From positions 1 to 35,643 of the IMG/VR virus record IMGVR_UViG_3300036790_000073: a stretch of 35,643 bases of DNA. One strand, given 5' to 3'. The stretch comes from a virus. Numbering within the stretch: position 1 is the stretch's first letter; each line of letters starts with the position of its first letter. Of the stretch, positions 6,072 to 35,643 are shown one piece after another. The notes under the pieces were generated by a model that did not search any database, had not been told where the DNA came from, and saw only the letters and a program-made list of their open reading frames with translations. The translations under genes and the position numbers were made by a program.

Positions 6072-6105
6072 GGTACATTATATCATACATTATAATGTAA
6101 TGCAA
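6070..6105 (-). promoter_or_regulatory. Sigma70-type promoter with consensus -10
   Basis: Minus strand: -35 TTGCAT at 6105-6100, 17-bp spacer, -10 TATAAT at 6082-6077 with an extended TGATATAAT. The expected start is about 6070, at the ATG of the 74-aa gene. The whole spacer is palindromic (see the operator). It shares TATGATATAATGTAC with the 4.12-kb promoter. It should drive the 74-aa, 69-aa, secreted and 81-aa genes. Confidence 0.75.
6075..6099. promoter_or_regulatory. Operator-like sites in the 6.08-kb promoter
   Basis: A perfect 14-bp palindrome, TACATTATAATGTA, fills 6086-6099 between -35 and -10. A further ACATTATA half-site overlaps the -10 (6075-6082), four bases from the palindrome. 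The same half-site forms the inverted repeat at 4106-4126, so one regulator probably reads both promoters. Confidence 0.6.
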
Positions 6106-6131
6106 GGCCTAATTTGAAATGTTAATGGGTG

Positions 6132-6317
6132 CTAAGCGTCTGCTTTGATGGTTTTTACGTCGGGTAGTTTTAATCCAGGGCAGTGACATTCTTCATCGAA
6201 AACACAAAGTTTCGGGCCATACATGCTGTGATCTGCGTGTGTGTGCGGGCAGTTCTGGCATGGATAGCCGACCTTAATCTTCGGTTGTTTCTTCGGGAAG
6301 TTCTCGAATAATGACAT
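6132..6317 (-). CDS. Small Cys/His-rich, probably zinc-binding protein, 61 aa
   Basis: ATG at 6317 has AAGGAAAACACCGCC upstream and overlaps the preceding gene by 44 bp. Cys20-x2-Cys23, His25, His27, His30, Cys38, Cys44 and Cys46 make a compact metal-binding cluster (YPCQNCPHTHADH ... CVFDEECHC). One of several tiny Cys-rich proteins in this genome. Function unknown; it ends the transcription unit upstream of the 6.08-kb promoter. Confidence 0.7.
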   Translation of the reverse strand: MSLFENFPKKQPKIKVGYPCQNCPHTHADHSMYGPKLCVFDEECHCPGLKLPDVKTIKADA

Positions 6318-7931: not shown

Positions 7932-9600
7932 TCGGGACCACACCGCCTTTGGAAAATCCTTGAATTGCATCGTCGACCGATTGGTCCGATTGATGGGCCA
8001 GTTCTTCAAAGAATTGTGGAAGCGTTGCTTTGGGATTGGCTTTGGTCCATCCCGCGACTTTGTTGGCGATGTTTCCGCCCAGACGATACCCGCCACGGTC
8101 CAAGCCTTCTTGGATTAAACGATTCGTCGCTGATCCAGGGGCGCCACGTCCGACCAAAGCTTTACGGCCGCCGGCGGCTAGTGCTTGTTCCAGTTTCTTG
8201 TGCGCACCAAAATCACGGAGACTGTCGGTAAACATCTTGCCTTCTTCGGTGTTGAATGTGGCCCGCGTGGCGTCATTGTTCATGCGCGCCAAAATGTTCG
8301 CGCCTTCAGTGGTCGGGCCAGGGTGCAGCCCCATTTTCGTGGCTGGGGTGGCCTCTGCATGCAGGTCGGTGGCCAGCTTTGCCATCTTCGAGAAAGTCGG
8401 AGTCTGTGCGGCCTTGTCGAATTTTGCCAGAACCTTATTCACTTCACCTGGGGCATCGATCCCGAATTTGTCTTCCAGCTGCGCTTTTAATTGGTCACGC
8501 ATGGCGGCAACGGGCGGCGCGCCACGCTTGTCGGCGATGTCTCGCAAAGCGCCAAGCTGTTCGCCAGCCTTGTTCATATTTTGTTCGACCATAGTTCTGC
8601 GGGAAGTGTCTGACAAGGACGGATCCAGGTAGCCTTTTTCGCGCGCATAACTGACCAAAGCTTTTCCTTTTTCCAAACCTTCGAATCCAGGACCCATGCT
8701 TTTGACCTGCCCAAGTTGCAAGCCGATATCTTTGCCGCCAAGCTTGGCCGACTCTTCATCCAAATAATTCCCGATCTTTTGAACGATGCCAGGCTTTTGC
8801 GCGAATTTCTGGCCCTTGCTTGCCATCCAGTCTTTCACGTCCTGCAAAGGGTCGGCCTTTGGAGGTGGTGGCGTAGGTGGCGGCGGCTCTTTCGGGATAT
8901 TTGGAAGCGGTTCGAAATTGGTGGAATTCGGCTGGCGTCCAGTTATCGGGATTCCTGCGGCTTCCAGGTCTTCGGCTGGCACGCTTGATCCCCAACCGCG
9001 CGCCTTCAGGTTCGGGTGCTCTGGGTCTCCAAAGACGTTATAAACGGACCGATCCGCCCCACCTGGTCCAAACTTGTCATTGTAAGCGAATAGCGCATGC
9101 GGGTCGCCAGTCTTGGCGCCAGGTTCAACGATGGGAAGTCCTTTCGGAGCTTCCGGCGGCATAGGAACGACCGCGGGCGGCGTTTCCGGGGGTACCTCTG
9201 GTGGTGGTGTTCCACGTGGAAGATTTTCTATGTCAGGAGCGCGAAGCTCATTTAAACCAGCAACGGCGCCAGCCGCATTCAATGTCTGTTGCACTGGATG
9301 CTCTTCGAAATAATCAATAGGATGCGTTATTGGCCGCGCCATGGCCTTGGCGTTTTCTACTGGATTGGAAAAGAAATCCTTCCCTTCTTTGGCGAGTTTC
9401 GGAAGCGCTGACGCAACATCACCAGACATAATATCGACTGCTGGACCTGAAGCCATATCGCCGAGACCTTTGGCGGTCTGTTTTAGGTCAGGAATTATAT
9501 TCCCAGCGGTCTTCTCTAAGAAAGACGGGTTTTCGTCATCAAAGACAACGCTTCCGTTGCCCGCCGGTGCAGCCGAATCATCATCGAATTCAACGGCCAT
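7894..9600 (-). CDS. Large virion/ejection-type protein, 568 aa
   Basis: TAATG junction with the upstream gene. An acidic N-terminus (MAVEFDDDSAAPAGNGSVVF) precedes a Pro-rich middle (PPPEVPPETPPAVVPMPPEA; PKEPPPPTPPPPKADP), and the C-terminal half (about 280-540) is mostly helical. No enzyme motif is visible. Size, composition and position at the end of three other large low-complexity genes match internal or ejection proteins of podoviruses. It could carry a membrane-interaction role during DNA entry. Assignment by context. Confidence 0.7.
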   Translation of the reverse strand: MAVEFDDDSAAPAGNGSVVFDDENPSFLEKTAGNIIPDLKQTAKGLGDMASGPAVDIMSGDVASALPKLAKEGKDFFSNPVENAKAMARPITHPIDYFEEHPVQQTLNAAGAVAGLNELRAPDIENLPRGTPPPEVPPETPPAVVPMPPEAPKGLPIVEPGAKTGDPHALFAYNDKFGPGGADRSVYNVFGDPEHPNLKARGWGSSVPAEDLEAAGIPITGRQPNSTNFEPLPNIPKEPPPPTPPPPKADPLQDVKDWMASKGQKFAQKPGIVQKIGNYLDEESAKLGGKDIGLQLGQVKSMGPGFEGLEKGKALVSYAREKGYLDPSLSDTSRRTMVEQNMNKAGEQLGALRDIADKRGAPPVAAMRDQLKAQLEDKFGIDAPGEVNKVLAKFDKAAQTPTFSKMAKLATDLHAEATPATKMGLHPGPTTEGANILARMNNDATRATFNTEEGKMFTDSLRDFGAHKKLEQALAAGGRKALVGRGAPGSATNRLIQEGLDRGGYRLGGNIANKVAGWTKANPKATLPQFFEELAHQSDQSVDDAIQGFSKGGVVPNDVKQWVTSRGC

Positions 9601-11195
9601 TATTTAATCGTCGCCATCCGACCGCCGATCGACACGCGGGTTCCGACTGGAAGTCCAGCGCCTTCGGCTTCTTCGACTGAATTGAACGATTTTACGCCTG
9701 TGGCTTCATTTTGCAGAACCTTTTGAGCATCGCGTCCAGAGGACGTTAATTGATTAAGCCCTTTTCGCATAATTCCTTGACCCGCAAGCGTTTTGGCCGC
9801 ATCCGCTTGGCGCGTTGTATCAGCTTCGTGGCGCTCGGCTTTTTGATTGGCAATCGTGGCGGCGACCTGCTGTTTCTGTAGGTCTAGCCCCTGAACCTTG
9901 ATCTGGCCCTGGAATTCCGTATTTAGCGCGTCCACGCCTTTGCCAGTAACATCGGCAATGAGCGACGCTGGCGCATGGCTTAGATCGATGCCGATTTTCT
10001 TGCCGACCGACGCATAGGCTTTCTGGGCGTACTTGGAAAGCGGCGAGTTCGGGTCTCTGGCTTCTAGCTTGTCAGCCATTTCGGCGGCTTTTTCTTGGTT
10101 CCCGCGGATAGTCTGCATCCCTTCGATGCCTTCCTTGGTCTTGTTCGCCAAAAGGTCTTCGGATTTGGCCAGGCCGCCTGGATTGACTTTACCCAGCGTG
10201 CCGCCAGATGCGATGGCATCGCCGATTCCTGCGATTCCAGCCCCGATCTGGCCGGTCTGTTGCTTCTGCCCCAAAAGCTTCATTAACCCCGCCTGTTGGT
10301 CAGGACCAAGGCCAAGCACCTTATTCGCGCGGTCCATGTAGGTCTGGTCCGTTGGCAATGGTGCCGGTGGGGGTACTTGGGCACCAATGGGCATACTTGG
10401 GGACGCATGGGCGACGGTCGCTGGCCCAGCTTGTTCAGTGTCGTTAGGCCCTGGGCCTTCGTCTGTCGGTGCCCCAGCTTCGGGCTCGACCATCGGATCC
10501 GCTGGCGGTGGCATTTGACCGTTCATCTTTAAAGTGTCGGAGTCTCCGCCATCGACTTGGAAATCGGATCCAGGTGTCGCGCCTCCAGTGTCGTAATTCA
10601 TGCCCATGCTTTTCAGCTGGGAAATGACGTCTGGCTTTTCTTCGGCTTCGGCGGCCATATCCTCTTCGTCCTGCTTGTACGGCGCCATGCTGTCTTCTTT
10701 GGGCGCGGGAACGATGCGCCAAGATTCGTCTGGCCGGCTTTCCTGGCGTTCCTTGTGGGCGTCTTTCACGAATTCCTTGATGTCTTCAGGAATGATCGCG
10801 GGATCGTCGTCATCTTCTCCAGCGGTGCCAGTTTCTGGTATCGTAGGCTCAGGGTTTGGATTGGACATGAGGCCATCGACTCCAGCGATCCCGCCTTCGC
10901 TCATCATTTGAACGTCTGCTTCCTGGCCAAACTTGTCCCAGGGTGCCCCGTGCTGATAGTTCGTTTCGAGACCTTTTCCGGCGGTATTGTGCAAATACTC
11001 TGGATTGGCCAGTCGGTCATTGGCATCCGCGCGTTCGCCCAAGACTTTCGCCAGACCAATTCCAGGAATTTGATCGATTAGTGTGCTTAAATTTCCTTCC
11101 TTTCCTGGAAGTCCGATTTCTTCACGGTTTCGTTCGACCGCTTCCATTTTTTGTTCAGGAACGCGTCCGCCTCTGGCATAAGCTTTGATTTTCAT
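9600..11195 (-). CDS. Virion/ejection-type protein, 531 aa
   Basis: The ATG forms ATGA with the upstream stop. The N-terminus is basic (MKIKAYARGGRVPEQKMEAV), the middle is acidic and Pro-rich (about 120-280), then come a Gly/Ala-rich stretch with GIAGIGDAIASGGTLG and a helical C-terminus ending GLPVGTRVSIGGRMATIK. The last segment resembles the short 'G-T-x-V-x-I-G-G-R' beta tail seen in some phage structural proteins. No catalytic motif. Assignment as an internal virion protein is from context and composition. Confidence 0.7.
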   Translation of the reverse strand: MKIKAYARGGRVPEQKMEAVERNREEIGLPGKEGNLSTLIDQIPGIGLAKVLGERADANDRLANPEYLHNTAGKGLETNYQHGAPWDKFGQEADVQMMSEGGIAGVDGLMSNPNPEPTIPETGTAGEDDDDPAIIPEDIKEFVKDAHKERQESRPDESWRIVPAPKEDSMAPYKQDEEDMAAEAEEKPDVISQLKSMGMNYDTGGATPGSDFQVDGGDSDTLKMNGQMPPPADPMVEPEAGAPTDEGPGPNDTEQAGPATVAHASPSMPIGAQVPPPAPLPTDQTYMDRANKVLGLGPDQQAGLMKLLGQKQQTGQIGAGIAGIGDAIASGGTLGKVNPGGLAKSEDLLANKTKEGIEGMQTIRGNQEKAAEMADKLEARDPNSPLSKYAQKAYASVGKKIGIDLSHAPASLIADVTGKGVDALNTEFQGQIKVQGLDLQKQQVAATIANQKAERHEADTTRQADAAKTLAGQGIMRKGLNQLTSSGRDAQKVLQNEATGVKSFNSVEEAEGAGLPVGTRVSIGGRMATIK

Positions 11196-12514
11196 GCGAC
11201 CCCCTGGTGATGCGCGTTCAAGGCCCGCATCGTGTCCAAAACCGCTTTCGGATGGATCGCCGGTTTTGCTTGCGGTCGCGGCAAGCTCCGTAAAAAGTCC
11301 ATGGCTGGCTGCATATTTCCTTTCATCGCCGGAATGGCGGCGGTACGCGGCAACATCACTTCGTCAGGCGACGCCGCGATTAACTGGGTGTCGTTGCGCG
11401 GGCTATCACCTGGCACCGTGGCTTTTCCTGGTATCGGTCCGCCTCTAGTCATGTTCATTGGACGCGAGACGCCGCCAGGAACTATTCGTCCGCCGGTAGC
11501 TGCTGTCGCTACGCCGCCAGTGGATCCGCTTGTGCTTACGTTCGCGTTTGGCACCGTTCCAGTATTGTTATTGGCCAAGGCGGACGCCAAAGAGGTGTAG
11601 GGATTTCCGCCCGCTTCAGCGGATGCCACGGTTCCGGCGGTTGAGATCAAGCCGCCAAGGATTCCGGCATTCTGCTGGCCGGTCTGGGTCTCCGTGTTTG
11701 CCAAATCATTGGCCCCCGTCACGCCAGCAGCGGCTTTGTTCAAAGCGTCCTGATAGGCTTGCTGTTGGGCCGCTGGCACCGATTCTTCCTGGGTCTGGGC
11801 AGTCACGGTGTTCTTGTTCGACACGTCTTGGGCATTGGCCAGATTCGCGGCTTTGGCGGCATTGGCTTCAGTCGTGTTTAAGTTCTCGACCGTCTGATTC
11901 TGCTGGGCGTTAAATTTGGCAATGGCATCAGCCGCACTGGCCGCGTTGGCGGTCTGCGTGTACTGTTGGCCCTGGACCTGGCCGCCTAAAGTGCCTTCCT
12001 GGCCCAAAGCGGCAAGTGCGCGGGCTTCAGCCGCGGCATTGGATTGCAAAGCGTTCGAATTGGCGGTGGTCGCATCGGTTGAATTTTCGGAAAGCTTTTC
12101 GGCAAGCTTCAGGCCCGAATTATCAATCCCTTGGGCTGAAAGCGATCGGTCGATGGCCGCATTATTGCCGGACTCGGTGGTTCCAAGCGTGTTTAAAATT
12201 CCCTGGATGTCGGCTTGTTCTTCGGCATCGTTTCCGCCGGAATTGACAATGTCCTGAAGCTGGCCAATCGTCGAAAGCTCGGTGTCCATCCCCGTGTTGT
12301 CGGCGGTTGTCGTGGCGAAAGCACTTTGTCCTTGAAGATAAGCCTGGGCCTCTTCGGGCGTCATGATTCCAGCGACGACGTACTGCTGGAGCTGCGGAAG
12401 TGTCAGCTGGGCCGCTGTCGGCGTCTGAACTGCATTCACATTGGCCAGTTGCGACTTTAGGGTATCGGCCGCCGCTGAATCTTCCCCGCCTGAAAAAAGG
12501 TCTGCTAAATTCAT
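11192..12514 (-). CDS. Virion/ejection-type protein, 440 aa
   Basis: ATG overlaps the upstream stop as ATGA. The first ~330 residues are Ala/Asn/Gln/Thr-rich and helical. Near 345-400 there is a GGRIVPGG, GGPIPGKATVPGDSPRND and ASPDEVMLPRTAA pattern, the 'GG-x-I-P-G ... GDSPxND ... SPxEVxxPR' signature I know from phage internal or tape-like proteins. It probably belongs to the core/ejection complex that moves into the host envelope with the DNA. Confidence 0.75.
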   Translation of the reverse strand: MNLADLFSGGEDSAAADTLKSQLANVNAVQTPTAAQLTLPQLQQYVVAGIMTPEEAQAYLQGQSAFATTTADNTGMDTELSTIGQLQDIVNSGGNDAEEQADIQGILNTLGTTESGNNAAIDRSLSAQGIDNSGLKLAEKLSENSTDATTANSNALQSNAAAEARALAALGQEGTLGGQVQGQQYTQTANAASAADAIAKFNAQQNQTVENLNTTEANAAKAANLANAQDVSNKNTVTAQTQEESVPAAQQQAYQDALNKAAAGVTGANDLANTETQTGQQNAGILGGLISTAGTVASAEAGGNPYTSLASALANNNTGTVPNANVSTSGSTGGVATAATGGRIVPGGVSRPMNMTRGGPIPGKATVPGDSPRNDTQLIAASPDEVMLPRTAAIPAMKGNMQPAMDFLRSLPRPQAKPAIHPKAVLDTMRALNAHHQGVA

Positions 12515-12720
12515 TTGATTTTTCCTTTTCTAGCCATCATTCCGATTGACGGGCTCTGTTTTTCCTGCATGTACTGTTTTAAGAGCGCCAGGACTTCCAT
12601 ATTCCCGTATTTCGGGTTTGCGTCCCCGAATTTCTTCAGGGCTTCCAAAATCTGCTGATCCGTGCCGTGCGGCATGGAGCTTCGAACGATTGGTAAAAGT
12701 GCTTGCGGATTGATCGCCAT
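12511..12720 (-). CDS. Small helical protein, 69 aa
   Basis: ATG at 12720 has AAGGGGCGATT upstream and lies between two ejection-type genes, overlapping the next by 4 bp. Two helices are likely (DQQILEALKKFG, NMEVLALLKQYMQEK), ending in a basic tail (MMARKGKIK). Location suggests a minor virion component or an assembly partner of the ejection proteins. Family not recognised. Confidence 0.7.
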   Translation of the reverse strand: MAINPQALLPIVRSSMPHGTDQQILEALKKFGDANPKYGNMEVLALLKQYMQEKQSPSIGMMARKGKIK

Positions 12721-12729
12721 AATCGCCCC

Positions 12730-14829
12730 TTAAAAGAGATGCCCGAAAAAACTTCCGATTTGGTCCGCTGCCGTTGTGATATCGCCTTCGATATTTTTCC
12801 AGACTTGTGGTGGAATCGATAAAGCACCAAGACTCAACGTATTGCCGGCGATCATTCCCAAGCTTTTCACGGGATTATCGACGATGTTCTGTTCGATGTT
12901 AGATGCGCCGTAAGCCGCCAGCGCCGCCGGTGGTAAAGCTTCTAGGGCGCCTGTTGCGCCAGCTGATCCAGCTTGACCTAATTGATACCCTACCGTAGTT
13001 GGTTCGCCAGCGACTGCGTCGGCAGTGCCAGCCGCAACACCGCTGGCGGTCGTCGGTATTGCACCGGCAGCAGCGGCGGCCGCATACGCATCAGCTAATC
13101 CAGCTCCGACTGCGGTAGGTGCCGCTCCCTCCGCCGACTGTTCTAGTCCTTGTCCTACCACTTGGCCGATCGGTGCGCCTGTAACGGGATCGGTGACCGT
13201 GTTCGGGCCATAGGTAATGGACGGTGCGCCAACACTTCCAAGCTTTCCAAGGTCGCCATTTATGGCATCGATCAAAGACTGATATGCGTTTTCCGTGTTG
13301 TCCACCCAGCCAAGGCTCTGCGCGATAGGTGCGACGGCGTCCCAGCTGGCATTTGGTGTGGATGCGACGATCTGCTGTTGCTTGGCCAAATCGGATTGCG
13401 CGGTCGCCAATTGTGTTTTCAGTTTCGCCACCGCATTCGGATCGACACCCCTTTGACCTTGAAGCTGGGCCAGCTGTGATTGGATTCCCGTAATCGTTTT
13501 CTGATCAGCGGTCGCGGCGGTCTGTGCTGGGACAGCGATCGTGTTGTAGTTGTAGGCCGCCTGTTCGGCTTGCGTGAAAGGCGCTACCGCTGAATTGATT
13601 TCGTTGCCAAATCCCGTCAGCTCATTGGATAGGGCCGACTCGACACCAGGCGCTTGCCCAAGTGCGTCTTGTAATTGCGTCGGCACGCTGAAAGTCTGCG
13701 CTTCATTTGCCGTCGATCCATTGATTGGAAGCGCGCCAGTGTTGGTATCGCCAAGCTGAATAAGTGCCGCGATATTGGCGTAGTCCTGTGGTGATGCGTA
13801 GGCCGCTTCATTTGGCATGGCGATGGATGCGATATTTTCAAGAGCCGCCATCGGATCGGTGCCGGCGGGGAATGTGACATTTGGATTCTGCGCTAAGAAA
13901 TTCTGAATAGCCGACGTGATGTCAGCGACCACGGGATTAATGGTGTTGACCGACTGATTGTATTCGTTCACCACGCCCTGAATGGTGTTCTGTTCGGTGT
14001 CAAGATTCGAAGCGACACTTCCCTGCGCGGAAGCCAGTGCGGCGGCTGCATCTTGCGCGGCGGTCGAAGCGTTCGTCGATCCTGTGGCGGCCAAAGCGTT
14101 TTCGTTGGTCGTGTCGGTTTGAAGCGTCGGTAAAAGGTTTGCAGCCGGCGTAGCGGCGGCCGCAATCGTGGCGGCGTTCGCTGGATTCTGATTCAAAAGA
14201 AGTGAGTCAAGATTATTGATTCCCTGGGTAGTCGGTCCTTCGACGCCCTGCAAAAGAGTTTGTACGCCCGTCGGTGTGGTCGCGTTGGCGGCCGTCGCGT
14301 TGGCGTTGGCGATTTCGGATTCCAAGTTCGCATACTGCGGCGCTTGAGTGAAGTCCGTCGGGCCAGCATAGGTGTCGTTTAAGTTCGCGGTGAAATTGGA
14401 AACGTTCTGGGGATTTTCCGCGACGACGTATGCGGGATTTTCAGAGACCGCGCTGATCAGATCTTTGTTCTCCGGCGTGTATCCGGCATTTACGGAGCTT
14501 GTGAAATTATCGGCTGCGCTCTGCGTGTCGGCGGCGGCTTGCGTGATCGGGGCCGATACAGTGCCAGCCACTTGCGTCGCCAGTTGCTGGGATTGCGGAC
14601 CATTGGCTGCCAAATAGGATGCGATGTTTTGAAATGGCTGGGACGGGTTGTTCGTGCCCGTGACTTGACCCGTGACGTTTCCCGCGCCGGTCGTTGTTAC
14701 CGCGCCGGCGCCGCCAGATGTGGCCGGCTGATTGGACCCCTGCGGCGACTGGACCTGATTTGGATTGGTCGCCGGATTGTTCGGGTTGTTTGGATCGTTC
14801 GGGTTATTGCTTGAATCTACCTGCGCCAT
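12730..14829 (-). CDS. Large low-complexity ejection-type protein, 699 aa
   Basis: TAATG junction with the upstream gene. The N-terminus is Asn/Pro/Gly-rich and disordered (SSNNPNDPNNPNNPATNPNQ). Most of the rest is Ala/Asn/Gln/Thr-rich helix. Around 560-660 is very Ala/Gly-rich and mildly hydrophobic (YAAAAAAGAIPTTASGVAAG; ALPPAALAAYGAS), possibly membrane-active. It ends GSFFGHLF. No cysteine-rich or catalytic motif was noticed. As the largest of four such genes, it is the best candidate for the main pilot/ejection protein. Confidence 0.75.
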   Translation of the reverse strand: MAQVDSSNNPNDPNNPNNPATNPNQVQSPQGSNQPATSGGAGAVTTTGAGNVTGQVTGTNNPSQPFQNIASYLAANGPQSQQLATQVAGTVSAPITQAAADTQSAADNFTSSVNAGYTPENKDLISAVSENPAYVVAENPQNVSNFTANLNDTYAGPTDFTQAPQYANLESEIANANATAANATTPTGVQTLLQGVEGPTTQGINNLDSLLLNQNPANAATIAAAATPAANLLPTLQTDTTNENALAATGSTNASTAAQDAAAALASAQGSVASNLDTEQNTIQGVVNEYNQSVNTINPVVADITSAIQNFLAQNPNVTFPAGTDPMAALENIASIAMPNEAAYASPQDYANIAALIQLGDTNTGALPINGSTANEAQTFSVPTQLQDALGQAPGVESALSNELTGFGNEINSAVAPFTQAEQAAYNYNTIAVPAQTAATADQKTITGIQSQLAQLQGQRGVDPNAVAKLKTQLATAQSDLAKQQQIVASTPNASWDAVAPIAQSLGWVDNTENAYQSLIDAINGDLGKLGSVGAPSITYGPNTVTDPVTGAPIGQVVGQGLEQSAEGAAPTAVGAGLADAYAAAAAAGAIPTTASGVAAGTADAVAGEPTTVGYQLGQAGSAGATGALEALPPAALAAYGASNIEQNIVDNPVKSLGMIAGNTLSLGALSIPPQVWKNIEGDITTAADQIGSFFGHLF

Positions 14830-15634: not shown

Positions 15635-18120
15635 CGGCTGATATCCGAAACGATGTCGTATGAAAGTGAGCAGCCCAAAAATTGGAAGTTTGACAGTGCC
15701 TGATTCAAACTTAACCCGACTTGCACCCAGTGTGCCAACATTTTTTGAATTGGCGGCGTGGTGGCAACGGCTTGCGTGAGCAAGGACGTTCCATTCCATG
15801 GAATTTGTCCAAAAGGAAATTCGCCCCAGTTCCCGTTTATTTGCGGCTTGATCGACCATGTTTCCGTGAACAAAGAGGCATCCGAAATCATGGACGCCGA
15901 AATCGACGTGAAGTTCGCATTCGAGAAATTGTAAATCACGCGCGAAAAGTTCTTCATGTAATGCGTGAAGTTTGCCGAAATCGGAGTCGTGACGACGGTC
16001 TGTTGGAACGGTGCTACGAGCGTGGCCGATCCATTGGCCCACGAGAAAAGATCGGTGACGGTCACGGTTATATGGACCACGTCCACCGCTGTCACGATTG
16101 ACGCGAAGAAGTTCTGCGACAACGTTTGGCCGACTTGGGCATGCGTGACGGACGTGAGCGTTACCACGAGGCCAGACGCACCCGTGATCGTCACGGGATA
16201 TCGATCATCACCAAAATCGAATCCGTTCGGGTTATAGGTCTTCACTTCCTGATAAAGAAAGTTCGTGTTATACGACGGTGTCAAATACAGTTTGTTGTCG
16301 GGCTGAAAACTCACCATGCCAGACGTGGGAGCGATCAGCCAATGCGTCCAGGCTTGGGTCAGCCAGTTATAGACGTATATTTGCGTCGCGGTCGTGTCGG
16401 AATTCTGAGACGGTAAACAAAGCAGGTATTCGCGCTCCGATTCATACGAAAGCCCGAAGGTCGCCGTCGGAAAGTTCGTGAGCGTCGAGATTTGAAGCAG
16501 CGCGCCTTCGATATTTCGGCTTTCGATGTTCACGCCAGATTCGGAAATGGAAACGACCATCTGCGACGTCATGGCAAAAATCGTGTTGTTCAGCGTGTAG
16601 GCCGAATCCGGCGCGATCAAAATAATCGTGGTGTCGAATGGTGTGACGGTCAGCTGTGACGGTGAAGTACCCGTAATGCGAAAGACGCCGTCTTGTTTCA
16701 TGACGACGACCGAATCACGCAGCGCGATCACGCGATAAATTGGTTTGTCGCCGCCACCGATGAAGATTTGGTTCGTGAGCGGGACGGCTTCGGGCTCGTT
16801 TGATTTCGACACCGATACCGCGTTCGGAAGCGAGTCATTCGAAGAAATGTAGGTCGATCCTGCTGTCGGAATCGTCGGCTGATACACCGCGCCATTGGAC
16901 GACGTCAAGTGAAACGCCGCCAGCGTGTAGTTCCGCGCTTGTAGGAAGATCAGGCCAGGCAAATCATTGTATCCGACGGGGTAGAACGCATAAATGCCAG
17001 TATTGGCCGGATATTCGTTGATGCAGGACACGAGATTCTTGGAAGTCGAATCGATATTTGTGCCAGGCGTTCCGCCGGTGACAACCTGAAAATTTCCCGT
17101 CGCAAAATTGTTTGACGACGCCGCCGTGTAGGTCACGCCGTTGATCACGAGCGTGTCGCCGACCGTTGGCGTCGTGATCATAGTGATGTAGATGTTTTGC
17201 AAGCTCGTGGTGTTGGCGTAAAAGGTCATTCCCTGAAAAGACGTGAAGTCTGTGGCCAAAGGCGGCGGGAAATTGTATTGCGTCGCACCTTCTTGGCTCG
17301 GGCTACCGTAAAAGGTCGCGCCCAAGAGTGAATCCGGCGTCACGTCCAAAATGGTAACGAAGCCAGCGGCCAAATCGCCACTGGTCGGGCTGTACTGCGC
17401 GGCCAGCTGCATGTTGTCCGTCGCCGGAACGCTTGACGACGTGGTTTGTAGCGCGCGGTATAGGTTCGCGGTGTAGGCGGTCGTGATTCCTGCGGGGATC
17501 GACGCCACGACCGACACGTTCTGATTGGCTCCGCTGGCATTTATGGCAATCGCGCGATAGCTTGGCGCGCCTTCGTCCAAATTCCCGTTGTCGTCGGTGT
17601 ATGACCATGTGAGCCGGTAGGCGGTCTGCGCCGGATTCAAAAGAAATCCCGATGCAGACGATCCCAGGGTCGCGGTCAGGTCGAGCGCTGGAGGAACGCC
17701 GGCCGGAATTGGCACGTGATTGATCGCGTCCTGTTTATAGACGCTGTTCGACGTCGTCATGTACCAGTTCTTATTGGCTTCCCCGCCGCGCAATCGCACT
17801 TGGCCGGAAGGCGGTGCGAAGGTTTCGGACATGGAATAGATCGTCCAGCTGGGGCTTGTCAGCGACGTCGAAAAATAAAGGTTATTGTCGGACGCGTGCG
17901 CGATCCATCCGTCTTGGTATTCAAAGAGAGAATCGACGAACTGATTGGTCGCCAGACCAATGGATGATCCGATGAATGTGATGCCCCGCCGCGACTGCAC
18001 GACGCCATCAGCGGAAACGACAACATTATCAGCTTGGACCAATGCGCCAGGAGGGACTTTAGAGTCCAGGGGATTCGGGAATGTGTAGAGTCCCGCAGTG
18101 CCAAGATCACCGATGTACAT
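15631..18120 (-). CDS. Tail tubular protein B-like / tail hub, 829 aa
   Basis: ATG at 18120 has AGGTGACGC upstream. The protein is beta-rich throughout, with an N-terminus typical of this group: a Pro-rich leader, then 'ALVQADNVVVSADGVVQSRR' (26-45) and G-ITFIG. Later blades include SDNNLYFSTSLTSPSWTIY, MKQDGVFRITGTSPSQLTV and YVYNWLTQAWTHWLIAPTSG. T7 gp12 and P22 gp10-type hubs have this length range and composition. It would form the tail tube or nozzle below the adaptor encoded just upstream. Confident as a tail protein, moderate for the exact homologue. Confidence 0.8.
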   Translation of the reverse strand: MYIGDLGTAGLYTFPNPLDSKVPPGALVQADNVVVSADGVVQSRRGITFIGSSIGLATNQFVDSLFEYQDGWIAHASDNNLYFSTSLTSPSWTIYSMSETFAPPSGQVRLRGGEANKNWYMTTSNSVYKQDAINHVPIPAGVPPALDLTATLGSSASGFLLNPAQTAYRLTWSYTDDNGNLDEGAPSYRAIAINASGANQNVSVVASIPAGITTAYTANLYRALQTTSSSVPATDNMQLAAQYSPTSGDLAAGFVTILDVTPDSLLGATFYGSPSQEGATQYNFPPPLATDFTSFQGMTFYANTTSLQNIYITMITTPTVGDTLVINGVTYTAASSNNFATGNFQVVTGGTPGTNIDSTSKNLVSCINEYPANTGIYAFYPVGYNDLPGLIFLQARNYTLAAFHLTSSNGAVYQPTIPTAGSTYISSNDSLPNAVSVSKSNEPEAVPLTNQIFIGGGDKPIYRVIALRDSVVVMKQDGVFRITGTSPSQLTVTPFDTTIILIAPDSAYTLNNTIFAMTSQMVVSISESGVNIESRNIEGALLQISTLTNFPTATFGLSYESEREYLLCLPSQNSDTTATQIYVYNWLTQAWTHWLIAPTSGMVSFQPDNKLYLTPSYNTNFLYQEVKTYNPNGFDFGDDRYPVTITGASGLVVTLTSVTHAQVGQTLSQNFFASIVTAVDVVHITVTVTDLFSWANGSATLVAPFQQTVVTTPISANFTHYMKNFSRVIYNFSNANFTSISASMISDASLFTETWSIKPQINGNWGEFPFGQIPWNGTSLLTQAVATTPPIQKMLAHWVQVGLSLNQALSNFQFLGCSLSYDIVSDISR

Positions 18121-18123
18121 GCG

Positions 18124-19083
18124 TCACCTGAAATTTGGAAACAGCGATGAAAGCGGCCACGCGACATTTTTATTGACGATCTTCTTGGACTGGCCTTTCC
18201 ATCGTGGCGTCAAAAGTGTTTTGGCGTCGTCCATCTGCGCCGACACTACTTTCGACATGGTGTTGAATCCGTTGGCGTTCTGCATGGATGTGAACACGCG
18301 CAAACATCCGGCATTGATCAAAAGCGGGTACAGTTCCAAGGGAAGCTGCGGCACGCATGTGGTTCCCGCTGGACAAAGCCACTGGCCTTTGACGACGGTA
18401 GAAGGAATCGAAGTCAGCGTGATCGATGTGCTGGCGATGTTCGTGATCAAATTGTCGTCGGACTGTGACGTGAACTGCGGCAAGTTGTTCACGATGTCGA
18501 CCATGGTGGATCCTTGCGTCCAGCCCGACGGCACTGATCCCACCGTCACCACGTTAGTCGTGTAATTCACCGTAAGAATTTGCGCGCAAAAGCTGGACTG
18601 CACCAGGATTGACGGGCGCCGCGCGTACTTAAATCGGATGATGAAGCCAGACGGATAAGGAAACGTCGTCGGATAAATGTTGAAGGCATCGTCTTTGGCA
18701 TACATCCCGCGCATGGAGGAAATCGGCACGAACGAATAGAAGGGCGCGACCTTTTGTTGTTCCGGCGCCAGCTGTGCGATCTCGACTTCGTTGCCGGACG
18801 AATCCACCAGGACGATGTCTTGCAAGCCACCCATGATCGTACGCTGCGGGACGATGTAGCTTGTGACGTTCGGCGCGATCAAGACGTCGTGGTACTGAAT
18901 CCAATAGGCTTCGCGGATAGACTGCACAAGCGCGCTGATCGTGGTCTGCTGCTCTTCGTTTAAGAACGCGACAATGTCGGCCGGCTGATAGGTGATCTGG
19001 GAATTAGGCAAAGCGGTATTGCGGTAGACGGATGCGACGCAATCGTCCACCAACATGTACGGCGATGGGATCGCCGATGCCAT
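18124..19083 (-). CDS. Tail tubular protein A-like / head-tail adaptor, 319 aa
   Basis: ATG three bases after the upstream stop. Early residues (MLVDDCVASVYRN; QPADIVAFLNEEQQTTISAL) look helical, as in gatekeeper/adaptor proteins (T7 gp11, P22 gp4 type). The middle is beta-rich (FYSFVPISSMRGMYAKDDAF; FIIRFKYARRP), and the C-terminal part is helical with KTLLTPRWKGQSKK. It is larger than T7 gp11 because of an inserted beta region (~165-235). Being directly before the hub gene supports a connector role. Confidence 0.75.
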   Translation of the reverse strand: MASAIPSPYMLVDDCVASVYRNTALPNSQITYQPADIVAFLNEEQQTTISALVQSIREAYWIQYHDVLIAPNVTSYIVPQRTIMGGLQDIVLVDSSGNEVEIAQLAPEQQKVAPFYSFVPISSMRGMYAKDDAFNIYPTTFPYPSGFIIRFKYARRPSILVQSSFCAQILTVNYTTNVVTVGSVPSGWTQGSTMVDIVNNLPQFTSQSDDNLITNIASTSITLTSIPSTVVKGQWLCPAGTTCVPQLPLELYPLLINAGCLRVFTSMQNANGFNTMSKVVSAQMDDAKTLLTPRWKGQSKKIVNKNVAWPLSSLFPNFR

Positions 19084-19086
19084 TCT

Positions 19087-19380
19087 TTAGCCCAGCTTCT
19101 TTAAAAGCTGATTGATGTAGCCGTCTTCTTCGTTGTGCGCGTCTTCGGGAATTTCTCCGACGGCTTCATGATCGTGTTCGTGCACGGGGTCGACGCAACC
19201 GTCTTCGTCGCATTCCTCTTCGGGCATGTCCTCTGAATGAGGGGATACGGTGATAGCGATTTCGACACCTTTGACGGGGCCCTTTTTCTTCAGGTCGCCG
19301 GCGGTGACGTCATCGACTTCGCCCATCATCTGATCGATGACGCTTTTTTTCAGGTCTTCGTCGTCCATTAAGTCAGTCAT
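19087..19380 (-). CDS. Small acidic protein, 97 aa
   Basis: ATG at 19380 has AAGGGAGCGTT upstream. Very acidic (MTDLMDDEDLKKSV; EDMPEEECDEDGCVDPVHEH), with two Cys and several His that might bind metal. No hydrophobic core of note, so it is probably disordered in part. It lies between the signal-peptide protein and the adaptor gene. It could be a chaperone or assembly factor for tail proteins; unproven. Confidence 0.7.
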   Translation of the reverse strand: MTDLMDDEDLKKSVIDQMMGEVDDVTAGDLKKKGPVKGVEIAITVSPHSEDMPEEECDEDGCVDPVHEHDHEAVGEIPEDAHNEEDGYINQLLKKLG

Positions 19381-19389
19381 AACGCTCCC

Positions 19390-20154
19390 TTAGTGCTCGA
19401 ATGAATACCGTTCGTTATCCGTCGCGGTGAACGTCACGGCGCCAGTGTCCGGCGGTGTCACTTTGAGCCGCAAATATCGGTGATTGGTAGGCCCAAGATC
19501 GTACAGAGCGGATCCACCGCCGATGACGTAAGTCGTGCTCGTAATCGCGGCGTTGTAGTTGCCGACGGTCGCATTAAAGAATGTGTTTTTATCGTCGGAC
19601 CATTGAATTTGGATACCGCCAGCCAGCGACACGTTCGTGAACGCCAGAGGGGCCAGCGTGTATCGGTTCGTTGAAGTCGAGCTGGAAGCCAAGACAACGC
19701 CAACGCCGGACTGAGCGAAAGCCAGCGTCGTTGAAAGTTTTATTGTCGATGATACACCAAGAGTGTTTGGGCCAATCACGCTAATGTAATAAGTCGTCAA
19801 ATCTACAAGACCCGCAATGGCAGTCGCAGCAGCAGTCGAATAAAGAACCTGTTGGCCCGTCGTAAAATTGTTTCCCGAAATGGTGATGGTCGGCGTGTTC
19901 AAGACAAAATTATTCGATCCGAAGTTCGTGGACACGGCCACGGTGTAAGACGAATAAGAGATTTGCATGGATACGCGGTCGCCCGTCGCATTCATGTCGC
20001 GCGTGAAGGTCTGCGCAACAGCGCCACCTTTTACGACGGCTGTCCCTTCCGTGCCAATGAACGGGCCGGAATACGCGACGCTCGAGGCGTGTGCCAAGGA
20101 AGCTACTAATAAAAGACCTGCGATCAAGACTGATTTCTTTAAAGCGTTGAGCAT
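19390..20154 (-). CDS. Signal-peptide beta protein within the tail module, 254 aa
   Basis: The ATG at 20154 has AAAAAAGGAGCCACTCAA upstream, better than in-frame codons further up that overlap the fibre gene. MLNALKKSVLIAGLLLVASL is a textbook Sec signal (basic start, Leu core) with cleavage after AHA. The mature protein is Ser/Thr/Val-rich and beta-stranded (VAVSTNFGSNNFVLNTPTIT; FATDN-type end TATDNERYSFEH). A Sec signal on a gene inside the virion cluster is odd. It could be a periplasmic assembly factor or a surface protein, or a structural homologue that acquired a signal. Confidence 0.75.
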   Translation of the reverse strand: MLNALKKSVLIAGLLLVASLAHASSVAYSGPFIGTEGTAVVKGGAVAQTFTRDMNATGDRVSMQISYSSYTVAVSTNFGSNNFVLNTPTITISGNNFTTGQQVLYSTAAATAIAGLVDLTTYYISVIGPNTLGVSSTIKLSTTLAFAQSGVGVVLASSSTSTNRYTLAPLAFTNVSLAGGIQIQWSDDKNTFFNATVGNYNAAITSTTYVIGGGSALYDLGPTNHRYLRLKVTPPDTGAVTFTATDNERYSFEH

Positions 20155-20170
20155 TTGAGTGGCTCCTTTT

Positions 20171-21811
20171 TTAAACATGAATAAACCAAAAATTAACTTC
20201 CGTGTAATTTGTATTCCCAGAGATTCCATTGGCCGCAGTTGGTGGAAAGGAAGAACCTGTTGAACCACTTCGAGAAAAGAAAACTGTGGTAGTGGTAGAC
20301 CCGTCCGTGATCATTCCCCCAGCATCGCTACTGGCATCCGTCAATTCTGTTTTAGAGCTTTGCCATAAACCGATTAAATCCTGGTTACTGCTCATGCCGG
20401 AACTAGCGTTGTAAAAAATAGTGAAGCTGTTCGGCAAAGAAATTGACCCCGTCGACGCCGTGACTGTCCCAGCCTGAAAAATGCCACTCACATAAACCGT
20501 ATCGCCTATCTGTTTCCAGCGAAAAGATACATTGGCAACCGTTCCGAAACCGACGATGGTCGGAGTATAGGAAGCCCAATTGGTAATGACGGGAACCTGT
20601 CCGAATGCGGCCGCATCTGTCGAAACTGTTCCGTTTGCCACGCCAGTGATTTTGTTGGCACCCATCGCGATCGTTGAGGCAGACATCGTGATCGCCCCAG
20701 CTCCGCCAGAGAATGTCGAAATGCCAGTAAAAGAGTACGCCCCAGGAAGCGTGTAGTTCCCAACATCCAAAACCACGTTCGCGGTAGTGATTGCATTCCC
20801 AGGATTCGGGATTGTGATAGCCAGGTTCGCGCTGCGGCTGGCCTGGGTCGCAATGCCAATGGTGATATTGTGGGCGTTCTGGACGTAGGTATCGTTTACG
20901 CTGGCCGCTGTGGCGGGATAAAGCGTGAGATTTCCGGCCGCTCCGCTCGTGACCGTTCCAGCTCCACCAGGAGCCCAGATTGTGTTTCCTGATCCATCCG
21001 TCTGCAAAAATTGATTGCTTGTTCCGTGCGTCGGTGGAAGGCTTAAGGTCCAGGATGTGGTCGAGTTTGTGGCCTTTACCGTGACCGTGTTCGTGCTGTT
21101 GTCGGTAAGGACAACGGCTTTGGATGAGGCTAAGGTGATGGAATTGGAAAAGTTCCAAGTTCCGGCAATCGTGTACGCCCCATGGTCAAGCACAAAGTTC
21201 GCCGATGATGCGACGTCTGGAATCGTATAGACCTCGGTCAAGGCCAGAGCGGTCGAAGAGATGACAAGCTGATTCGTTGTGCCTAAAACGATTTGGTTTG
21301 CGGTCGCCGTAAACGTGCCTTGCGTTCCTTTCACGGTGGATGTCGCCTGAATGGATCCTGGGGCGATGAAGGCGGACGGTACCGATAGCGTGACGTTGCC
21401 GGTTGGATTGGATGCCGTGATCTGATTGGCCGTCCCTAGGATCGAAAGAACGGGTGAGGCCGCAGCGGTGGCAATGATGTCGCCGTTCCAAAGCAGGTTG
21501 TTTGAACTGTCCACGGACAGCGCTAAGTCTGCGCTATTGGCCGCATTGCGCCAGTCAATCGAATCTGTGTTGGCTAGTCGGACTTGCCCAGTTCCTGCGA
21601 TGTTGGCGGTGACGGATTTATAGTACTTGGAAAGCAGACCAAAGTTTGTGCCGAAGGAAAGGTCCGCGGTCAAAGGCAACGTGCCCCCAGAGGCTTGATA
21701 AGCCCCCTGGGGGATTGCCACGAAGTAATTGGTCAGGTTTTGTCCCCAGTTGGATTCGCCGACGTCGGGGATGATGTAAACCGCGTTATTGAATGTGATC
21801 GACTCGGCCAT
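20171..21811 (-). CDS. Tail fibre / receptor-binding protein, 546 aa
   Basis: TAATG junction with the upstream gene. The start (MAESITFNNAVYIIPDVGES) resembles a virion-attachment domain. Repeats follow in which a strand pair ends 'YTIPDVASSANFVLDHGAYT' and 'NVVLDVGNYTLPGAYSF', typical of triple-beta fibre shafts. The C-terminus (about 410-546) has WASYTPTIVGFGTVANVSF, WKQIGDTVYVSGIF and SISLPNSF, a phage-fibre tip domain I recognise from similar genes. The host receptor cannot be read from sequence. Confidence 0.8.
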   Translation of the reverse strand: MAESITFNNAVYIIPDVGESNWGQNLTNYFVAIPQGAYQASGGTLPLTADLSFGTNFGLLSKYYKSVTANIAGTGQVRLANTDSIDWRNAANSADLALSVDSSNNLLWNGDIIATAAASPVLSILGTANQITASNPTGNVTLSVPSAFIAPGSIQATSTVKGTQGTFTATANQIVLGTTNQLVISSTALALTEVYTIPDVASSANFVLDHGAYTIAGTWNFSNSITLASSKAVVLTDNSTNTVTVKATNSTTSWTLSLPPTHGTSNQFLQTDGSGNTIWAPGGAGTVTSGAAGNLTLYPATAASVNDTYVQNAHNITIGIATQASRSANLAITIPNPGNAITTANVVLDVGNYTLPGAYSFTGISTFSGGAGAITMSASTIAMGANKITGVANGTVSTDAAAFGQVPVITNWASYTPTIVGFGTVANVSFRWKQIGDTVYVSGIFQAGTVTASTGSISLPNSFTIFYNASSGMSSNQDLIGLWQSSKTELTDASSDAGGMITDGSTTTTVFFSRSGSTGSSFPPTAANGISGNTNYTEVNFWFIHV

Positions 21812-22710
21812 TAAATGCCTTTGTGGTATGTCTGGACGTGCGCGTCCGTTCCCCCTGTGAAGAAGGTCGTTCCACTCCAGCTACCATTGGCCGCCGATTT
21901 GTTAACGGAAATGTTGTTCCCGATGGTGCCAGGCATCAACACAGTGACAGTCACAATACCGGTCGTGGTGCCAGTGGCGACTGCGCTGAAGAGCACCGAC
22001 GTCGCGCTGTTGGCATTGATCGCGGCCGCCAAGTTCTGGGCCGTTGCAAGTGCAGATCCGGCGACCACGAACTGAATAGAAGTTGGGGCGCTGGCCACAC
22101 CAGTGAAAGTCGTGCCGCCTACGGTAACGGTGTCGGCATTCGACAAGTTTGAAGCCGTGATCGTGAAGACGTCGGATGCGGACTTCGGACCAATCGTACC
22201 GCCTCTCATGGCAGATGACGGGGCCAGCGTCACGTTCGATCCAGACTGCGACCATGTGTAATTGCCGCCAGTCCCGTTGTTTAAAGCCGTGACAGTGACA
22301 ACGCCAGTCGTGGTGACGGTGCCTTTAGCATAAGATGCGCGCACGAGAGGGCCAAGCGTCACGTTCGAATTGATGGCGGCCACCAGATTTATGGCGGTCT
22401 GAAGGGCGGTCGTACCGATCTTGAACTGGCTGGCCAAGGTCGGCGTGGTCTTCGCGGTGAGCACGACCGAGTTGATCGTGATGGTGTCGGCGTCGGCCAT
22501 GTTGCCGGTAGCAATAGAGATCGTTCCAGTGCCTTTGGTCGGGCCAGAATTGACCGTGATAACTTCGGAGATGGCACCGATCGCTACCCCTTCGAAATGC
22601 TTTCCAATGTTGCGAAAGACGTTGGCGTACGAAACGTTGCTAAGGTTTCCGAAAAGTTTATCGTCGTACGTTTGTCCGCTGATGCTGAATTTGAACGGGG
22701 TGGTAGCCAT
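21811..22710 (-). CDS. Structural protein with duplicated beta domain, 299 aa
   Basis: ATG at 22710 has GCGGAGAACACACC upstream. Residues ~66-172 and ~184-287 are two copies of one domain: ADADTITINSVVLTA matches NADTVTVGGTTFTG, and TALQTAINLVAAINSN matches ALATAQNLAAAINANS, each followed by GVVTVTALNNGTGGN or GIVTVTVLMPGTIGN. The first 45 residues (TPFKFSISGQTYDDKLFGNL) are separate. It follows the capsid gene and precedes the fibre, so a head-decoration, neck or fibre-base role is likely. Confidence 0.8.
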   Translation of the reverse strand: MATTPFKFSISGQTYDDKLFGNLSNVSYANVFRNIGKHFEGVAIGAISEVITVNSGPTKGTGTISIATGNMADADTITINSVVLTAKTTPTLASQFKIGTTALQTAINLVAAINSNVTLGPLVRASYAKGTVTTTGVVTVTALNNGTGGNYTWSQSGSNVTLAPSSAMRGGTIGPKSASDVFTITASNLSNADTVTVGGTTFTGVASAPTSIQFVVAGSALATAQNLAAAINANSATSVLFSAVATGTTTGIVTVTVLMPGTIGNNISVNKSAANGSWSGTTFFTGGTDAHVQTYHKGI

Positions 22711-33091: not shown

Positions 33092-33285
33092 TTTTTGGTC
33101 TCCTGGGCTTCCAGCATTTTAGTAATTCTCTGCATGTCTCCGTTGTGCAAAAGCTTGTCCAAGTCTTCGCGGCACATCGGAATGATCGAATGCACCGCGA
33201 TCATCCACCCGCGCATACTGGCCACGCAGAGCGGACAATAATCACCGACAAGCCCTTCAATCGCTGGGCTAGACTTTGACGACAT
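33088..33285 (-). CDS. Small Cys-containing protein, 65 aa
   Basis: ATG at 33285 with GAAGG six bases upstream, overlapping the cold-shock gene by 17 bp. Cys17-x2-Cys20 (DYCPLC) and Cys38 with His32 nearby could form a partial zinc site; the remainder is helical ([20 protein letters not shown]). Coupled to the Acb2-like gene by ATGA. Function unknown. Confidence 0.65.
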
Positions 33286-33469
33286 TCGCGGCCTTCGGTC
33301 CCTTGTCGGACTTGGTCACCTCGAATTCCACTTTGTCGCCTTCTGCCAAAGACTTAAATCCGTTGCCACCAATCGCGCTGAAATGCACGAAGATGTCGCC
33401 GCCGCCTTCAGCCGCGATGAATCCAAAACCCTTTGCGTCGTTGAACCATTTGACTACGCCTTTTGCCAT
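33269..33469 (-). CDS. Cold-shock domain protein, 66 aa
   Basis: ATG at 33469 has AGGAGGATTAAGACA upstream, a strong site. A full-length CspA-type OB fold: [20 protein letters not shown] with RNP1-like KGFGFI (13-18) and RNP2 DIFVHF (25-30), then [12 protein letters not shown] and a normal C-terminus. It binds single-stranded RNA/DNA and may act as an RNA chaperone or antiterminator in infected cells. Close to bacterial homologues in shape, so acquired from a host is likely. Confidence 0.93.
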
Positions 33470-34532: not shown

Positions 34533-34829
34533 GTCGTTACACCGTCCCCTGAGTCTGAGCAGTTGGGAGCAAGGACGCTGAAGATGTGTTCTTCAGTGTC
34601 ATTGATCTGATAATTAACTTTTTGACAGACCGGCGCGTCAGAGCCGGAAGCATCATGGGTAGTTAATGAACCATCCTCGTCCCCTTCGTCATCGCAGAGG
34701 GTCACAAGGCCACGTGGGATCGTTGGACTAAAACGACCGCTTATTCCACGCATGGATCGGACGGCAAAGCCGGATTGATCCCATTGTTTATAGTCAGAAA
34801 TTAACTCGGCAGGATTAGGCACTTGGAGG
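34533..34829 (-). other. Leader/intergenic region with hairpins, no convincing gene
   Basis: About 300 bp between the terminated RNA and the first small gene. Only a TTG-start frame crosses it, and that begins inside the terminator stem. On the minus strand three clear hairpins occur: a nested GGATC/GATCC with CGGC-TTT-GCCG near 34750, GGTCGTT-TTAGTCC-AACGATC near 34715-34735, and GAC-A-CTGAAGA-ACACA-TCTTCAG-C-GTC at 34574-34600. It may be an RNA leader controlling the early operon. Confidence 0.45.
34574..34600 (-). other. Long hairpin near the first early gene
   Basis: Minus-strand stem GACACTGAAGA / TCTTCAGCGTC with one A-C mismatch and loop ACACA, ten pairs. No U-run follows. It lies ~40 nt upstream of the 45-aa gene's start and could act as an RNA stability or regulatory element. 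Confidence 0.5.
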
Positions 34830-34891
34830 AAAAAACAAGGCCCCACCCGCTGCGCCAGAAACAACCGAAATCATCCTGGACGGGTGAGACC
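34830..34891 (-). terminator. Intrinsic terminator (11-bp stem plus U-run)
   Basis: Outer stem 34881-34891 with 34839-34849, then UUGUUUUUU at 34838-34830. The long internal loop with a second stem is unusual; a simple terminator would have a short loop. It ends about 65 nt from the promoter start. Confidence 0.6.
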
Positions 34892-34894
34892 TAT
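34830..34894 (-). ncRNA. Predicted ~65-nt small RNA or attenuated leader
   Basis: From a predicted start at 34894 the transcript reads AUA and then an 11-bp stem, GGUCUCACCCG (34891-34881) pairing with CGGGUGGGGCC (34849-34839), including two G-U pairs. A second stem CCAG/CUGG (34879-34876, 34858-34855) sits inside it, with a 17-nt loop containing UUUCGGUUGUUU. The outer stem is followed by UUGUUUUUU. Promoter, nested hairpin and terminator together define a compact unit. It may be an independent regulatory RNA, or an attenuator through which transcription must read to reach the early genes. Confidence 0.6.
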
Positions 34895-34927
34895 AGGGAA
34901 ATTTTATCATAGGTTGTCGGTTGTTTC
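34858..34927. repeat. 11-bp perfect inverted repeat spanning the promoter
   Basis: GAAACAACCGA at 34858-34868 and TCGGTTGTTTC at 34917-34927, 48 bp apart. One arm covers the -35 of the proximal promoter. The other encodes the loop of the small RNA. A short direct repeat, GGTTGT, occurs twice beside the promoter arm. It could be a two-site operator for looping, or a self-complementary RNA/DNA pair. Confidence 0.65.
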
Positions 34928-34929
34928 AA
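34894..34929 (-). promoter_or_regulatory. Sigma70-like promoter, proximal (hub)
   Basis: -35 TTGAAA at 34929-34924, 17-bp spacer, -10 TAAAAT at 34906-34901 with TG one base upstream (extended). Expected start at A34894. The TATGATAAAAT core matches the TATGATATAAT cores of the other two promoters at 9 or more positions. Confidence 0.7.
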
Positions 34930-34936
34930 TAGGCGC

Positions 34937-34972
34937 ATGGCGAATTGAACTAAACTTTTGCAGAAGTGTCAA
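34937..34972 (-). promoter_or_regulatory. Sigma70-like promoter, distal (hub)
   Basis: Consensus -35 TTGACA at 34972-34967, 17-bp spacer, weak -10 TTCAAT at 34949-34944, expected start near 34937. Transcripts from it would cross the proximal promoter and the small-RNA terminator. Confidence 0.5.
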
Positions 34973-35410: not shown

Positions 35411-35643
35411 TTATTTGATAGCAAGGATTCGCGCGGCGATATCCTTGCCGGACCTGGACCCGTACCCGTCCCCGGACCCGTACCCGTCCCCGTACCCGTA
35501 CCCGTCCCCGTACCCGTACCCGTACCCGTACCCGTCCCCGGACCCGTACCCGTCCCCGTACCCGTACCCGTCCCCGGACCCGTACCCGTACCCGTACCCG
35601 TACCCGTCCCCGGACCCGTACCCGTCCCCGGACCCGTACCCGT
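35411..35643 (-). CDS. Gly-Tyr/Asp/Ser repeat protein, C-terminal part (continues from window start)
   Basis: The same frame as the partial gene at 1-361 once the 99-bp overlap is removed. The repeat runs down to 35459 and is followed by Ser-Arg-Ser-Gly and [11 protein letters not shown], then TAA at 35413-35411. The transition codon AGG (Arg) replaces GGG in the last unit, suggesting the repeat degenerated at its edge. The unique tail of about 14 residues is predicted helical. Its good length and phase support a circular molecule. Confidence 0.8.
35459..35643. repeat. Hexanucleotide tandem array, right copy (coding)
   Basis: The same cccgta/cccgtc/cccgga hexamers. The last 99 bases equal bases 1-99 exactly, the signature of a circular or terminally redundant contig. 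Without the overlap the whole array is 270 bp, 45 hexamers: 26 Tyr-Gly, 12 Asp-Gly and 7 Ser-Gly units. Confidence 0.95.

Follow-up and report, generated by a model that had tools for sequence, protein, structure and literature searches.

A candidate bistable transcription attenuator with a promoter inside its antiterminator arm in a phage genome

Introduction

Phages use several RNAs that run from a promoter directly to a terminator, or that have a complementary arm lying outside their hairpin. Examples are the 6S RNA of lambda, which ends at tR', the CI RNA of P4 with its partner seqA, and IsrK of Gifsy-1. A related principle protects the insertion sequences IS10 and IS50 from outside transcription. 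RNA started outside the element holds promoter sequence that pairs downstream of the inner start, and its fold differs from that of RNA made from the inner promoter.

IsrK, a short RNA encoded by a prophage, stops at an intrinsic terminator; it also has an alternatively folded read-through form, and the short form acts on the long one (PMC4825925). The CI RNA of P4 is cut out of a longer transcript (PMC4825925).

Little is known of how phages without an identified host move from early to late gene expression. Here we describe an element in a 35.6-kb virus record whose parts all lie on the minus strand. We refer to the whole 35,643-nt stretch of DNA that was analyzed as the window. No antitermination protein was recognized in it. 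If the switch proposed below is real, then RNA folding and overlapping promoters alone would provide a compact early-to-late control. Such a layout can be searched for in other genomes even after its sequence has changed beyond recognition, and it can be tested in the tube.

Results

The minus strand has a promoter, a compact terminator hairpin and a U-run that together predict an RNA of about 63 nt (Table 1). This bears out the original prediction, which described a nested-hairpin RNA of about 65 nt running from promoter to terminator. The terminator stem, GGTCTCACCCG/CGGGTGGGGCC, is 11 bp long and unbroken as RNA, although what had been called a perfect stem includes two G-U pairs. Inside it, CCAG/CTGG encloses the expected 17-nt loop; in the minimum-energy fold, by contrast, the inner hairpin is longer and closes on a UUCG loop. 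The short RNA folds with a ∆G of -29.6 kcal/mol (z = -2.9), and none of 200 shuffled sequences was equally stable. When terminator-like hairpins were ranked, this one was the strongest on the coding strand. The GC-rich hairpin is directly followed by the U-run, as in an intrinsic (Rho-independent) terminator. No supported gene lies inside the hairpin, again as predicted. We rejected a gene starting within or directly after the hairpin because codon usage argues against it; the frame that begins just past the hairpin scores as non-coding. A short way past the terminator, where no gene is supported, we also observe a plus-strand inverted repeat, TGGGATC...GATCCCA (34715-34784), with a T-rich tail behind it.

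The promoter of the short RNA, P_b, had been described as a good sigma70-like site, and this holds. Ten of its 12 positions agree with the consensus and its -10 is of the extended type, with sigma70 rules assumed for the host. A simple sigma70 score computed over all positions places P_b at the top of the minus (coding) strand. The predicted RNA start lies seven bases beyond the end of the promoter (34901). Elsewhere on the minus strand, two strong overlapping promoters with a tandem TATAATGTA are found at 6077-6118. The ATG of the next frame (6071) lies 5 nt past their -10, which suggests a leaderless early transcript.

Table 1. Positions in the window of the predicted promoters, pairing arms and transcript.
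Feature	Positions	Strand	Remarks
P_a -35, TTGACA	34967..34972	-	proposed upstream promoter; inside 9-mer TTGACACTT
P_a -10, TTCAAT	34944..34949	-	17-nt spacer; poor hexamer; rank 5 on minus strand
15-codon frame, ATG...TAG	34891..34938	-	starts at predicted P_a RNA start, stops on arm b; putative leaderless leader peptide
Arm a, outer part, TGCGCC	34932..34937	-	pairs with 34851-34856
Arm a, core, GAAACAACCGA	34917..34927	-	pairs with 34858-34868; overlaps P_b -35 and spacer
P_b, internal promoter, TTGAAA-17-TGATAAAAT	34901..34929	-	start predicted near 34894; rank 1 on minus strand
Predicted short RNA of P_b	34831..34894	-	~63 nt; terminator hairpin including arm c, without arm a
Arm b, terminator stem 5' side, GGTCTCACCCG	34881..34891	-	RNA folding; terminator ranking
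Arm c, core, TCGGTTGTTTC	34858..34868	-	within terminator loop; complement of arm a
Arm c, outer part, GGCGCA	34851..34856	-	pairs with arm a outer part
Arm d, terminator stem 3' side, CGGGTGGGGCC	34839..34849	-	RNA folding; terminator ranking
U-run, TTGTTTTTT	34830..34838	-	sequence

Over 11 nt the terminator loop is a perfect complement of the promoter region, a feature absent from the original prediction. A false mir-30 match in the Rfam searches brought this long hairpin, which we call a:c, to light. Its 11-bp core is the longest perfect inverted repeat in the genome among those whose arms lie no more than 120 nt from each other. Past an unequal internal loop the helix is extended by a further 6 bp (TGCGCC/GGCGCA), so that arm a spans 34917-34937 overall and arm c 34851-34868. 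A third exact copy of GAAACAACCGA lies at 6281-6291, at the end of a 163-aa gene, and is probably a coincidence.

Because a:c is interleaved with the terminator helix b:d and the two are unable to nest, they have the anatomy of a terminator and an antiterminator: formation of a:c excludes b:d. This mutual exclusion, which is well supported by the computed helices, makes the locus read as a bistable attenuator. When each fold was enforced on the leader of the window, a:c reached -38.9 kcal/mol and b:d -30.6 kcal/mol. For RNA started upstream, a:c is the minimum-energy fold at every length from the synthesis of c through the U-run. Taken as a whole, the two leaders have folding energies that are only moderately unusual, with z values of -2.4 in the window and -2.3 in the relative described below.

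We searched for relatives with a profile of two portal proteins and found IMGVR_UViG_3300005664_000040 (pieces L007 and L008), whose portal is 36% identical to that of the window phage. It is the sole relative that reaches the attenuator region. Further profile searches with the portal and another structural gene returned this same record and no others, and searches with the terminase, an 84-aa gene and a 112-aa gene found no close relatives in the sequence collections searched. Gene order in the relative runs from a RecT-like gene, an exonuclease and small genes to RusA with further small genes, the terminase and the portal. This order continues across what in the window are its two ends, an argument for treating them as adjacent, though the record is classed as linear. 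In piece L007, a C5-cytosine methyltransferase gene (2342-3073) is overlapped almost fully by a second long frame of 237 aa on the same strand (2346-3059).

The ends of the window record (35425-35643 and 1-205) consist of imperfect CCCGTA/CCCGTC hexamer repeats, with 99 identical bases at both. Read on the minus strand, the repeats specify a (GDGYGS/GYGYGD)n tract linking MELLKVTK... to a further protein segment. They probably represent one repeat protein split by the record ends.

Between the recombination genes and the next gene, the relative has the same a-b-c-d arrangement (L008 545-452). Its arm a, GATACCCTGAGA (545-534), pairs over 12 bp with arm c, TCTCAGGGTATC (487-476), and this arm c sits within a terminator, CCTCCACGG...CCGTGGGGG-GTTTTTT. 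The gap from a to c is 48 nt in the window and 46 nt in the relative, and the overall lengths are 90 and 88 nt. The helices comprise 11 and 12 bp for a:c and 11 and 9 bp for b:d, respectively, with different bases. In both phages a:c is the longest repeat of its kind in the sequence examined, and the element occupies the coding strand of an intergenic stretch behind the recombination genes. The two phages have arms of unrelated sequence, so the pairing has persisted through sequence change. Coming from two genomes, this comparative evidence is good but not deep. The refuting outcome named in the original prediction, homologous phages lacking compensatory changes in the stem, was looked for within the limits of the data, and the one relative available does not show it.

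The a:c helix of the relative extends further through G-U pairs. Its two folds are nearly equal in energy, at -32.1 kcal/mol for b:d and -30.3 kcal/mol for a:c, with b:d slightly favored. In these models, near-equal folds are as expected for a switch that some factor would tip.

We scanned genomes for the layout, with the a-b-c-d order and an intrinsic terminator with a U-run required. The scan returned exactly one match per genome in the window phage and in the relative. Matches of at least 11 bp occurred in 6 of 2525 shuffled genomes (~0.2%). Ten control phages, well known or distantly related (382 kb), gave no match of at least 10 bp, one of 9 bp and one of 8 bp. A more distant Silvanigrella phage gave no match. 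In the record of that phage (L006), a run of frames of identical length occurs twice, at 9000-12900 and 18000-22000, a pattern suggestive of either a duplication of several kilobases or an artefact of assembly.

Alignment of the two leaders points to a second promoter, P_a, upstream of arm a. The 9-mer TTGACACTT (34964-34972) is identical in the relative and lies at an equal distance from arm a; sharing of this kind occurred in 13 of 3000 random pairs of stretches. The sequence 17 nt past this -35 region is TTCAAT in the window and GAAAAT in the relative. In both phages, RNA from P_a is predicted to begin on the opening bases of arm a. Since the -10 in the window is poor, P_a is a proposal. 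Conservation of P_b is not clear from the comparison: it is strong in the window, and the best site at its position in the relative has a score of 6.7 and ranks 70. Therefore, promoter choice may be peculiar to the phage of the window.

A search of Rfam, which the original prediction had also called for, was run at curated and permissive thresholds and yielded no matching family: nothing exceeded a gathering threshold, and only chance matches were seen. The C4 antisense RNA family (RF01695) likewise gave no match above its gathering threshold, and in one RF01695 search the control genomes were also unmatched, so this search by itself carries little weight. The window does have an upstream complementary segment of the kind that P4 CI RNA targets, and the searches bearing on kinship with CI RNA gave no Rfam match and no DNA match to phage records. 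We found no DNA similarity of note between the window and phages or plasmids. The exact a...c pattern is absent from viral contigs, and four matches to the 17-mer of the stem in viral contigs are chance matches in unrelated contexts. The claim that no RNA of this layout has been described in phages of this type stands for Rfam, but promoter-to-terminator RNAs and phage RNAs with an outside complementary arm are known.

Discussion

The most likely reading, on which our confidence is evenly divided, is that this locus is a bistable transcription attenuator that heads the operon behind the recombination genes, and that the outcome depends on whether the RNA includes arm a. In this model, b:d with the U-run would act as an intrinsic terminator and a:c as the antiterminator that excludes it. 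Since c is synthesized before d, RNA containing arm a can fold a:c first and read through. Transcripts beginning at or above arm a, at P_a or farther upstream, would form the antiterminator and continue into the downstream genes, which encode a VRR nuclease, a cold-shock protein, the terminase and structural proteins. P_b overlaps arm a, so its RNA lacks arm a and would fold b:d and end as the ~63-nt RNA. Promoter choice, or masking of arm a by anything, would then set transcription of the genes below. The two helices, their exclusivity, the ranks of the promoters and the conserved layout are results of the computation. Both promoters would have to be active, and folding would have to affect RNA polymerase, for promoter choice to act as the control; these steps, like the trigger of the switch and the role of the short RNA, are what we infer. 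Several results weigh against the model: two genomes have the element and the Silvanigrella phage gave no match, P_b is only weakly matched in the relative, the -10 of P_a in the window is poor, b:d is slightly favored in the relative, and the leader energies are only moderately unusual.

The original prediction offered either a small RNA or an attenuator. The attenuator is better supported, because an antiterminator matches the terminator and the relative has its own version of each; the short RNA is a prediction from promoter and terminator. That the terminator must be bypassed for transcription to reach the genes below it was half right, because transcripts starting at or above arm a would bring their own antiterminator. 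The phage encodes a CspA-family cold-shock protein (33269-33469), and none was seen in the records of the relative or the Silvanigrella phage. A phage cold-shock protein as the antiterminator of this site was rejected as a general answer, since the record of the relative has none.

A fuller version of this model is possible, although we think it unlikely. P_a would write the antiterminator into the RNA and open the late operon, and P_b would close the operon and free a short RNA that uses its loop to target the longer transcript. RNA and two overlapping promoters would then suffice for an early/late switch that reinforces itself. Compatible with the attenuator, and in our view unlikely, is that the P_b short RNA works in trans as the CI RNA of P4 does: its arm c loop would pair with arm a of nascent longer transcripts, free the terminator and silence the downstream operon. 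Between arm a and the arm c carried by the short RNA, complementarity is complete, with a predicted duplex energy of -31.5 kcal/mol and a cofold energy of -36.5 kcal/mol. P4 has a like upstream complement of 10 and 9 bp; in X51522 the upstream segment and its partner in the downstream RNA lie at 8487-8478 and 8378-8369. Its CI RNA is reported to promote termination via pairing with seqA and seqC (PMC4825925). However, the short RNA by itself has a stable fold (-29.6 kcal/mol) in which part of arm c is paired, and the relative has only a weak counterpart of the internal promoter. No integrase that would point to lysogeny was found, which leaves the need for immunity unclear. A ribosome could also choose the fold, if the ATG opens the P_a RNA and a leaderless leader peptide is translated from it. 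On arm a the ribosome would block a:c, and its position would pick the structure. This is quite unlikely, even though an ATG follows the P_a -10 at a distance of 5 nt in the window and 7 nt in the relative, the TAG stop of the window frame falls on arm b, and another strong promoter in the genome has its ATG at the same 5-nt distance past the -10 (6077/6071). The frames differ, having 15 codons in the window and 34 codons running through the terminator in the relative; neither a special-codon run nor, in the window, a Shine-Dalgarno sequence is present. By a rough estimate, an ATG near +1 in both phages would arise by chance about 1 time in 100.

That an ordinary terminator happens to lie beside a chance repeat, or that the arms are a pair of protein-binding DNA operators and not an RNA structure, we regard as decidedly improbable. 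The centre-to-centre distances of the arms, 59 and 58 bp, are also compatible with a conserved DNA loop. Yet a layout so rare in shuffled genomes is present in both phages, where the arm sequences are unrelated and c lies inside the terminator each time. The G-U pairs in the relative and the unequal internal loop in the window suit RNA, and for this reason the operator reading is disfavored. Most doubtful of all is a late switch of the lambda type, in which a terminator behind a constitutive promoter is overridden by a Q-like phage protein and a:c is secondary. The site does lie between recombination and terminase/structural genes, like PR'-tR' of lambda. However, a search that was positive in a control E. 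coli genome found no Q-family protein in either record, and the same scan finds no upstream complementary arm at lambda tR'. Such a switch would also leave the conservation of a:c in the relative unexplained.

Comparison with known systems

The attenuator that we propose shares most with leaders of the trp and riboswitch types, which have the same a-b-c-d order, the same opposition of a:c to b:d and a U-run past d. In contrast to those leaders, no known ligand, protein or leader-peptide signal is found here, and a strong promoter lies inside arm a, so that the start site can decide the fold. The P4 immunity system, with seqA upstream of the CI RNA, shares an upstream segment complementary to a segment in the downstream RNA. 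CI RNA is processed from a longer transcript, whereas the short RNA of the window would come from its own promoter inside the arm; P4 is unmatched by our layout scan, which demands an intrinsic terminator with a U-run. IsrK of Gifsy-1 likewise has short and read-through forms with alternative folds, but both come from one promoter, the partner segment is downstream and the effect is on translation.

The lambda PR'-tR' region (6S RNA) shares a strong promoter followed by a terminator before the late genes. It differs in having Q and in lacking an arm complementary to the tR' loop, and no Q-like protein was found here. In IS10 and IS50 the outcome is a block of transposase translation, whereas read-through of a terminator is predicted for the window. 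A literature search of partial coverage found nothing with a promoter-in-antiterminator-arm layout. In its proposed working mode the element is a terminator/antiterminator attenuator; its novel aspect is the strong promoter inside the antiterminator arm, which makes it a new variant of transcription attenuation.
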